This document shows positions 35,632 to 44,957 of a stretch of 64,000 nt of DNA, in pieces. Position 1 is the stretch's first letter, and the number at the start of each line of letters is the position of its first letter. The DNA is taken from positions 1-64,000 of the forward strand of contig MNJR01000051.1 of assembly GCA_001920415.1 (NCBI GenBank), written 5' to 3'. The position numbers and the translations under genes are program-made. The stretch comes from Acidobacteria bacterium 13_1_20CM_3_53_8. Its GTDB lineage: Bacteria; Acidobacteriota; Blastocatellia; Pyrinomonadales; Pyrinomonadaceae. A model generated the notes under the pieces. It was not told where the DNA came from. It saw nothing but the letters and a program-made list of their open reading frames with translations, and ran no database searches.

Positions 35632-37017
35632 ATGAAACGCATTCTGGTAGTTGACGACGACCGCGCTTCGTGCGAGTTGCTGCGCGAAATCTTTGCCGCG
35701 CAAGGGTGGCAGGCCGAGACCGCTCAGACGCCCGCGCAAGCTAAAGAGCTTTCCGAGTCGCATGCCTTCGATCTGGTGGTTAGCGACGTGAATCTTGAAG
35801 CAGAGGAATCGGGGCTGGATATATTGCGAATCTTGCGCGACAAGTGTCCTGTGATTCTTGTGACAGGGTTCGGCACACTGGACGCCGCCGTGCAGGCTTC
35901 GCGCGAAGGCGCTTGGGATTTCATCTCAAAGCCTTTCAAAGTTGAAGAGGTCGTGGCAACTGCGCGGCGCGCAATGGAAAGAGAGAGTGGCGAGAAGAAA
36001 GAGGCGAAGGAAGCGGAATCGGTTGCGCCTAACTACGAGCAGACGGGGCTGGTCGGTCGCTCGCCCATAATGATAGAGCTTTACAAAGAGATTGCGCGCG
36101 TAGCTCCCGCGCGTTCGACCGTGCTTATCACCGGCGAATCCGGCACAGGCAAAGAGTTGGTCGCACGCGCCATTCACCAGCACAGCCCGCGTGCCGCGCG
36201 CCCGTTCGTTCCCGTTAACTGCGGCGCTCTTACAGAAACGCTTCTAGAAGCGGAACTCTTCGGCCACGTGCGCGGCTCGTTCACGGGCGCTGTAGCGGAT
36301 CGCAAAGGACTCTGGGAAGAGGCTGAAGAGGGCACGCTCTTTCTGGACGAGACAGGCGAGACGAGCCAGGCCATGCAGGTCAAGCTGCTGCGTGCGCTTC
36401 AGGAAGGCGAGATTCGTCGCGTAGGTTCTTCAAAGCCAACGCGCGTTAACGCACGAGTCGTCGCAGCTACGAACCGCGATCTGGAACGCGAAGTTAAAGC
36501 AGGCAGATTCCGCGAAGACCTCTTCTACCGTTTGAGCGTGGTCACGCTAGTTGTCCCGCCCTTGCGAGACAGGCGAAGCGACATCCCGCTTCTAGGCGAA
36601 AGATTTCTGCGGCTCGCAGCCGAAAGGACAGGACGCCGCCTCAGATTCTCGGACAGTGCGCTCAATCTTCTGATGGCTTACGACTGGCCGGGCAATGTTA
36701 GGGAACTTGAGAACGCGGTCGAGGCGGCAGCGCTGCGCGCTCGCGGCGCGGAGATAGCTCCCGAAGATTTGCCCGTGAAGATGCAGACGAGCGATGTGAA
36801 GGCGCGCGCTGCTCTATCACGCTCGCCGCTGACGGCTATGTACGCAGACCTCGTCTCGATGGATGAATTGGAACGTCGCTACCTTCTTCACGTGCTGGAA
36901 GCGACGGGCGGCAACCGCACGCGCGCGGCAGAAATCCTGGACATTGATCGCCGAACGCTCTATCGCATGGCCGAGCGCTTCGGAATCAAGCTGGAAGAGC
37001 GCGAGCGTGAAGTGTAG
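35632..37017 (+). CDS. NtrC-family sigma-54-dependent response regulator (GSFTGA variant)
   Basis: 461 residues: receiver (acceptor Asp52 in VVSDVNL), AAA+ domain with Walker A GESGTGKE and Walker B LFLDETGE, and a Fis-type helix-turn-helix at the end (RAAEILDIDRRTLYRMAERF). The sigma-54 contact loop reads GSFTGA instead of the usual GAFTGA. Ser at the second position occurs in some natural activators, so function is likely kept. The ATG is followed by a well-formed receiver core. It pairs with the histidine kinase upstream. Target promoters are unknown. Confidence 0.93.
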   Translation: MKRILVVDDDRASCELLREIFAAQGWQAETAQTPAQAKELSESHAFDLVVSDVNLEAEESGLDILRILRDKCPVILVTGFGTLDAAVQASREGAWDFISKPFKVEEVVATARRAMERESGEKKEAKEAESVAPNYEQTGLVGRSPIMIELYKEIARVAPARSTVLITGESGTGKELVARAIHQHSPRAARPFVPVNCGALTETLLEAELFGHVRGSFTGAVADRKGLWEEAEEGTLFLDETGETSQAMQVKLLRALQEGEIRRVGSSKPTRVNARVVAATNRDLEREVKAGRFREDLFYRLSVVTLVVPPLRDRRSDIPLLGERFLRLAAERTGRRLRFSDSALNLLMAYDWPGNVRELENAVEAAALRARGAEIAPEDLPVKMQTSDVKARAALSRSPLTAMYADLVSMDELERRYLLHVLEATGGNRTRAAEILDIDRRTLYRMAERFGIKLEEREREV

Positions 37018-37103
37018 AAAAGCAAGGATGAATGAGTTGCTACTGATATGTCGCTCCTCTAAGAGCTAATACCGAATTGCACAATAAAATTAAGGTCAAC
37101 AGA

Positions 37104-37355
37104 TTATCCACTAAATCACACTATCAATACTGTGGACAGTTTTTGATGGCAAAAAGCTCAATAAATCAGCCGGTTTTCGCGTGGTTTTGAATTATTTGCA
37201 AGTTAGCTCCACGAGCAGACTTTGATTAAATTCAGCCGCGCTTGAAGAATCAATAACTTACGGAAATCGCGACTCTAAAACTGTCAACAGTATTGACTAT
37301 ACTACACGAAGAGAACTGTTCGTTTCGTGTAGTATAGTGTGATTTAGTGGATAAT
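37104..37355. repeat. Long palindrome, family A copy 5, split by an inserted element
   Basis: Without the insertion at 37125-37295 and one ACTAT copy, the arms read ATCCACTAAATCACACTATA plus CTACACGAA and its exact complement, a perfect stem of 29 bases. An outer word AATACCGAATTGCA lies just upstream, as in copies 4 and 7. Confidence 0.9.
37125..37295. mobile_element. MITE-like element, 171 bases, with ACTAT target duplication
   Basis: The terminal inverted repeats CAATACTGTGGACAGTTTT (from 37125) and AAAACTGTCAACAGTATTG (to 37295) differ at one position. ACTAT flanks both sides (37120-37124 and 37296-37300). The interior has no open frame. Removal restores the interrupted palindrome exactly, which proves insertion into a pre-existing hairpin. 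The transposase family that moved it cannot be named from this window. Confidence 0.88.
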
Positions 37356-37478
37356 TCATTCGCTCCTTTCTCTTAAAGGCTTATATCGAACTCACGTTAG
37401 GTATCATTAACTCGATTGAATTGTTATGCGAAGCGATACGACTACTCTTTTATGCCTCTTATTTTATACTTCGGCTCT

Positions 37479-38015
37479 TCACGGAGATGGCACGGCTTCA
37501 GTTCGCGTCTCTTCTTCGGGCGTGACGGGGGGCAGATTCAGATTGTCCAGAGTCTTGTCTAAGGCTGCGAGCTGGCGCGCAGCATCGCTTGCGCCGCGCT
37601 GCACGGCACGCTCGGCAGTGTCCAGGTCTCTGAGGATTCCGCGCAACGCTGTGTGGCTCGTTTCATCATCATGCGCGCGTGCACGCAGGGCGCGGTTGAT
37701 TGCGGTCTCGGCTTGATTCAGGGCACGCAGCGCGACCTCGCGGCGGTCGCGCCTGCGCGAATTAAGATATGTCCTGGCCTCTGCTATGCGGTCGCCTGCG
37801 ACCTCTATGTCAGCGTCACGCGCGGGCAGGTCTGGCTGGTGCGCTACGGGCTGCGCGCCCGGCGGCACGACCGAAGCGCGGCTGGCATCTGTCGTCACTA
37901 TCTCTTCGACGGGGTGCGACGCGCATGAAGCCGCAAGCATCAGGCCTAGGCAGAGCGAGAAGAGTTTGAGTGCGTGCGTCCGCTTTCCATTAGTTTGCGT
38001 CTCTAGCTTTATCAT
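37479..38015 (-). CDS. Lipoprotein of unknown function
   Basis: 178 residues with a lipoprotein signal: a basic start, a hydrophobic core (LKLFSLCLGLMLA) and lipobox LAASC at about residue 31. The mature part is a Pro/Ala linker (about 45-65) and then a charged helical region rich in Arg, Glu and Ala (about 70-155), which probably forms a helical bundle or coiled coil. GAAGAG precedes the start codon. The protein should be anchored to a membrane facing the periplasm. No family is recognised. Confidence 0.7.
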   Translation of the reverse strand: MIKLETQTNGKRTHALKLFSLCLGLMLAASCASHPVEEIVTTDASRASVVPPGAQPVAHQPDLPARDADIEVAGDRIAEARTYLNSRRRDRREVALRALNQAETAINRALRARAHDDETSHTALRGILRDLDTAERAVQRGASDAARQLAALDKTLDNLNLPPVTPEEETRTEAVPSP

Positions 38016-44715: not shown

Positions 44716-44957
44716 AGAACAGTTTTTAGTTTTTATAGCGGTTCTCACTTGGGTGCGACCACTCTGATCAAGGCATGCAGGTCAGTACCGCCTGCGGTAG
44801 CGGGCGGGTATCGGTGCGGCTACGACCCGCCCGCTACCGCAGGCGGTACTGACATGAGTCGCATTCAAGTGAGAACCGCTATAGTTTTCAGTTTTCAGAA
44901 AGAAGCGAACTGCTTTTCACTGAAAACTTAAAACTTAAAACTTAAAACTGAAAACTA
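44716..44957. repeat. Triple-nested palindrome: family D around a TATAGCGGTTCTC hairpin around family C
   Basis: The outer words are CAGTTTTTAGTTTTT and AAAACTGAAAACT (D type). The middle arms are ATAGCGGTTCTCACTTG (near 44735) and its exact complement CAAGTGAGAACCGCTAT (near 44864). The centre is a family C pair at 44781-44808 and 44826-44853. The order suggests successive insertion. Confidence 0.88.

Follow-up and report, generated by a model that had tools for sequence, protein, structure and literature searches.

Palindromes are known targets of insertion sequences. REP palindromes are entered by ISPsy8, ISPpu9, ISPpu10, ISRm22, IS1397 and IS621 (Tobes and Pareja 2006, PMC1525189), and IS1272 is reported to transpose into inverted repeats by replacing them (PMC5678879). 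Target duplications differ among the families of the IS4 superfamily, being exactly 4 bp in IS701 (elements of 1.40-1.55 kb), 4-5 bp in ISH3, 5-6 AT-rich bp in IS1634 (1.5-2.0 kb) and 7-13 bp in the IS4 subgroups (PMC2266710). IS630-type elements insert at TA (PMC2170065), and the title of Tenzen and Ohtsubo 1991, as cited there, gives the TA in CTAG as the preferred site of IS630.

The locus described here lies in a 64,000-nucleotide stretch of DNA (the window), and is a well-supported case of a nested MITE insertion, in which a 171-bp element (MITE-1) interrupts a family A hairpin. As in the REP-targeting systems (PMC1525189), extragenic repeat palindromes are broken and are restored perfectly on excision, and another element, MITE-3, repeatedly enters them at the same point. 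In those systems the target is the REP, whereas the palindrome here forms the centre of an element that is itself MITE-like; and while IS1272 replaces the inverted repeat, MITE-1 is a clean insertion. The kind of event is already known from nested MITEs and from palindromes that serve as insertion-sequence targets. The MITE families appear to be new, and it is these families, together with the repeated landing of elements in a single family of hairpins, that are novel here; the type of event is not. The features of the locus, in window coordinates, are as follows.

35632-37017, + strand: sigma-54-dependent NtrC/AtoC-like response regulator, the upstream gene, convergent with the downstream gene
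37051-37083, + strand: at the place expected for the left outer arm of MITE-2, a weak likeness, seen by eye and in direct orientation, to the right outer arm (TCGCTCCTCTAAGAGCTAATACCGAATTGCACA)
37103-37124, unstranded: the 22 outermost nt of the family A hairpin's left arm, with the first ACTAT as its last five
37120-37124: first ACTAT copy of the target-site duplication
37125-37295, + strand: MITE-1 (171 bp, non-coding), bounded by the inverted ends CAATACTGTGGACAGTTTTTGA / CAATACTGTTGACAGTTTTAGA
37125-37146, + strand: MITE-1 left inverted end
37274-37295, - strand: MITE-1 right inverted end
37296-37300, unstranded: second ACTAT copy of the target-site duplication
37301-37310, unstranded: hairpin left arm, inner 10 nt
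37311-37323, unstranded: hairpin loop GAGAACTGTTCGT
37324-37355, unstranded: hairpin right arm of 32 nt, which pairs perfectly with the left arm once that is rejoined
37356-37398, unstranded: MITE-2 right outer arm (TTCATTCGCTCC...GAACTCACGTT)
37479-38015, - strand: 178-aa lipoprotein-like protein, the downstream convergent gene, conserved with the regulator in relatives

With its insert, the palindrome spans 37103-37355, so that the interval given by a first-pass annotation of this DNA (37104-37355) was essentially right, and its 22-nt outer arms are 100% complementary across 209 nt. The 171-base element bracketed by ACTAT that the annotation described is borne out at the positions listed above. 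Its 19-base inverted ends are also present but do not match perfectly, having one mismatch (GTGGAC versus GTTGAC); over 22 nt, the two ends agree at 20 of 22 positions. The interior contains no ORF of 60 aa or more. Removal of MITE-1 together with one ACTAT yields ATTATCCACTAAATCACACTATACTACACGAA - GAGAACTGTTCGT - TTCGTGTAGTATAGTGTGATTTAGTGGATAAT, a hairpin whose 32-nt arms are complementary at every position and enclose a loop of 13 nt; the restoration is as perfect as had been claimed, and the reported stem length of 29 bases was a slight undercount. At control positions near the MITE-1 sites of relatives, the best hairpin score had a median of 5 and a maximum of 18, compared with 32 at the window site. 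Given these low control scores, the full complementarity of the outer arms and the presence of the same element, with duplications, at unrelated sites in relatives, the combination of palindrome and insertion is not a product of chance.

The exact restoration of the stem also supports the order of events proposed in the annotation, in which the hairpin predates MITE-1, and thereby provides a relative date for the two. It is the one argument for 'hairpin first', since no relative carries the hairpin without MITE-1 at this site; that a strict empty site once existed at this locus is what we infer.

Further members of the MITE-1 family were sought in 119 genomes of the same order. In its own genome, a 6.1-Mb draft of 155 contigs, MITE-1 is a single copy: sequence and end-pattern searches of the draft found no second one, and end matches with one or two mismatches were close in number to those of a reversed control. 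Across the order, the end pattern had matches in 13 of the 119 genomes and the reversed control pattern in 0; matches to MITE-1 at 76-79% identity were found in genomes G021 and G015, with partial ones in G024 and G010. Relatives contain about 20 further copies, mostly with 5-6-bp AT-rich duplications. Among 16 two-ended copies in relatives, the duplication was 5-6 bp long in 12, 4 bp in 1 and absent in 3 (the repeats included ATTAC, ATAAT, TTATAT, ATTAAA, TTTTAA, TTATT, TTTAAT, ATTAA, GTAAT, ATCTTT, AAAAAA and ACATAA). Three of the four two-ended copies in G127, which belongs to another family, had a 5-bp duplication (ACAAA, ATTAA and TTGAG), giving pooled counts outside the window of 15/20 with 5-6 bp, 1 with 4 bp and 4 with none. 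Seven copies that could be aligned have their ends and several internal blocks in common.

These copies bear on the alternative that the 171 bp was there from the start, as a large loop or insert within a longer palindrome, and that ACTAT is repeated by accident. The segment does sit inside a palindrome and has inverted ends of its own, but homologous elements with the same boundaries occupy unrelated sites with their own duplications, and other family A hairpins in the same genome lack the 171 bp. We regard the original-loop explanation as refuted by these homologues and insert-free hairpins and give it virtually no credence; MITE-1 is treated as an insertion in what follows.

Elements of 1.30-1.35 kb with MITE-1-like ends (CAATAGTTCGGACAGTTTTTGAC / CAATGGTTCGGACAG) are present in G025, G104, G021 and G015, and several contigs of G010 end inside such an element. 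One copy (L113) contains an intact 415-aa ORF at 901-2148; L114 and L116 are related copies, and L111 is frameshifted. The L113 protein has a Pfam DDE_Tnp_1 domain (41 bits, cut-off 23), and its segment YKARFQIEFIFRDAK fits the complete Y-2-R-3-E-6-K motif of IS4 (YREK). Its best NCBIfam model is IS701_3 (NF049999; 111.2 bits, under the cut-off of 170), and it scores 57.7 bits against NF033540, under the cut-off of 150. The IS1634 model (NF033559) does not match it and gives 22.8 bits, against a cut-off of 100, for the G010 copy. No duplications were seen at the full copies L113, L114 and L116; in G010, 6-bp duplications (GTAAAT and ATAAAT) were recovered by pairing contig ends.

With duplications of 5-6 bp instead of 4 bp, canonical IS701 is excluded, and the NCBIfam score of 111 of 170 bits likewise falls short of that family, as does the length of 1.30-1.35 kb compared with 1.40-1.55 kb. 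IS1634 membership, guessed from the 5-6-bp AT-rich duplications that this family also produces, was rejected because its model does not recognise the transposase and because 1.30-1.35 kb is below the 1.5-2.0 kb of IS1634. The IS4 family proper shares the YREK motif but duplicates 7-13 bp. Judged from sequence, the 1.3-kb element is best described as a member of the IS4 superfamily near IS701 and outside the IS701 definition.

MITE-1 and this insertion sequence are alike only at their ends: the left 15 nt of MITE-1 are identical to one end of L116 (in G021), and the best BLAST match is 13 exact nt. A deletion derivative sharing the interior of the insertion sequence was rejected on this ground. 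MITE-1 resembles the MITEs of the IS4 superfamily (IS701, ISH3 and IS1634 group; PMC2266710) in being short and non-coding, in inverted ends that resemble those of insertion sequences with a DDE_Tnp_1 transposase and in its AT-rich 5-6-bp duplications. Everything that defines a MITE was found, namely a short non-coding body with inverted ends, a target duplication and, in relatives, both dispersed copies and an autonomous element with matching ends, which supports the annotation's classification. A transposase gene with these ends, which the annotation proposed to look for in the genome, was located in relatives; none of this kind was found in MITE-1's own genome, a 155-contig draft in which absence is no proof. 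MITE-1 therefore looks orphaned there, and with a single copy and no such transposase found, its mobilisation within that genome is not demonstrable. The 1.3-kb element provides a probable autonomous partner for an otherwise orphan MITE.

The host palindrome has a history of its own, which the first-pass annotation overlooked: it forms the centre of a MITE-like element that is dispersed in the genome and of which the window copy is truncated on the left. Many family A hairpins of this genome form the core of a longer, self-complementary element of ~150-165 bp with ends AACGTGAGTTCGA, which we named MITE-2. It occupies about 40 loci in the genome (L234-L262), and its end pattern has 41 + 38 matches there compared with 1 + 1 for the control. 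When small boundary shifts are allowed, direct repeats of ~4-6 bp flank the majority of the full copies. The window copy matches positions 44-164 of the element, without the left outer arm, which was presumably lost. With MITE-1 sitting in a palindrome that forms the centre of MITE-2, a dispersed element in its own right, the locus is a nested insertion. No partner transposase was recognised by eye among the ORFs beside lone MITE-2 ends.

The family A palindromes of this genome are thus often cores of mobile-looking elements that are themselves struck again. Nested insertions in MITE-2 copies were also observed at L263, L264, L286, L289, L291, L292 and L293, some of them being the same MITE-3 copies that are counted below. 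Two more hairpin elements, with ends TATTACGGTTTACAG and TAGAGCAGTGTG, are nested in the MITE-2 copies at L264 (G000:C1) and L286 (G000:C7).

We compared the orthologous site across 13 relative loci that carry both flanking genes, two of which, L141 (QHXM01000114.1, Acidobacteria gp4) and L143, are identical between the genes and may come from one and the same genome. The annotation had named the presence of the same 171 bases in all relatives as the finding that would speak against it. MITE-1 is absent from 13 of 13 loci, though the family A hairpin is likewise absent from all 13 and none is a strict empty site. Neither being present in these relatives, hairpin and MITE-1 would both have been gained in the window lineage after the split from them, or lost in all of them.

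Between the two convergent genes, L141/L143, L145, L149, L150, L151 and L152 have other long near-perfect palindromes, mutually unrelated in sequence and built of degenerate ~7-nt tandem units; the remaining loci have no palindrome or only a weak one. Unrelated palindromes at one gene-pair site have the look of rapid replacement at a fixed position. A long palindrome at this site in about half of the relatives with the gene pair, together with its convergent intergenic position, is also what might be expected if the MITE had been co-opted and the composite hairpin either terminated transcription from both directions or signalled RNA processing. We consider such co-option quite improbable, as there is no T-run 3' of the hairpin, a long palindrome is missing at this site in the remaining relatives and no known RNA family reaches gathering level, the one Rfam match (18.6 bits) being far below its gathering score of 211.

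It is highly probable, in our assessment, that MITE-1 is related to an IS4/IS701-like insertion sequence and was mobilised in trans into a pre-existing family A hairpin, where it is nested in a truncated MITE-2 at what is most simply a tolerated site. This account draws on the clean insertion and restored palindrome, the duplications of the relatives' copies, the end-matched insertion sequence, the dispersed host and the orthologous sites free of MITE-1. A DDE transposase supplied in trans would have inserted MITE-1, as the non-autonomous relative of such an insertion sequence, through a 5-bp staggered cut at ACTAT in the left arm of the hairpin already standing between the two convergent genes, and the outcome would be one MITE nested within another, truncated, MITE-like element. 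The mechanism was presumably cut-and-paste, and the transposase of the 1.3-kb insertion sequence is the one that we infer to have moved this copy.

The annotation further took transposition to use the palindrome either as a target or as a safe site. For MITE-1, one event cannot show targeting, and the window insertion was omitted from the statistics because it had been selected for its palindrome. In 400 kb of G010, 2.85% of the intergenic bases lie in palindromes with a score of at least 20. Outside the window, 2/22 insertion sites of the MITE-1 family fall in long palindromes (p=0.13), which does not amount to significant targeting; within G010 alone the count is 2/8 (p=0.02). A palindrome excess for this family is suggestive at most.

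It is unlikely that the hairpin is an active, preferred target, with the MITE-1 transposase recognising extruded cruciforms or the palindrome sequence. The G010 count is in its favour, its two cases being a family copy inserted where the loop meets the stem of a perfect 31-bp palindrome (L176, duplication TTATAT) and a full insertion sequence in the arm of another palindrome (contigs C62/C92, duplication GTAAAT); so is the repeated entry of MITE-3 into family A hairpins. However, the 22 sites give no significant excess, the majority of copies sit in ordinary AT-rich DNA between genes, C62/C92 rests on paired contig ends and MITE-3, which duplicates TA, belongs to a different mechanism class. 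Most simply, the intergenic spot with its hairpin is a tolerated site for MITE-1.

A preference for family A hairpins is well supported for MITE-3, which is unrelated to MITE-1, and not for MITE-1. MITE-3 is about 146 bp long with ends TAGCGGTTCTCACTTG. Its duplication is TA in 31/31 distinct two-ended copies, often in a YTAR context, a duplication like that of IS630/Tc1-mariner elements. In 13/31 copies the insertion point is one fixed TA in a family A hairpin (CCAC-TA-AATCAC). The elements that target REPs, by contrast, are complete insertion sequences, with an association of 100% in some cases, whereas the elements here are non-autonomous. The window contains five CCAC-TA-AATCAC-type sites and 626 intergenic TA, giving 0.25 expected insertions, a roughly fiftyfold excess and a binomial p of ~1e-19, which is indicative since the background comes from just one 64-kb region and two mismatches were allowed in the motif. 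Copies of one composite element were rejected as the source of this recurrence: the inserts are 97% identical (median), compared with about 80% for the excised hosts, and on these identities the insertions were most likely independent. Outside family A, a MITE-3 excess in hairpins is unclear, so that recognition of sequence and of structure are inseparable. The window copy of MITE-3 (44736-44881) sits in an ACTGAAA-type palindrome.

A broader reading, which we consider rather unlikely, is that family A hairpins are shared landing pads that attract mechanistically unrelated small elements (the 5-bp IS4-superfamily MITE, the fixed-TA MITE and at least two others) and so absorb insertions between genes, and that any one convergent-gene site has its hairpin sequence replaced over time. 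The fixed-TA hotspot of MITE-3 allows a direct test of whether hairpins steer transposition or are merely tolerated.

Short tandem heptamer repeats in intergenic DNA have been described in Beggiatoaceae, in a paper that reports a single inverted repeat and makes no mention of palindromes (PMC4679880). Between 2933 and 63121 in the window, intergenic palindromes of low-complexity tandem units (AAAGGCAAAAGT, ATTTGAAATCT and CACAGAGAC types) are abundant.
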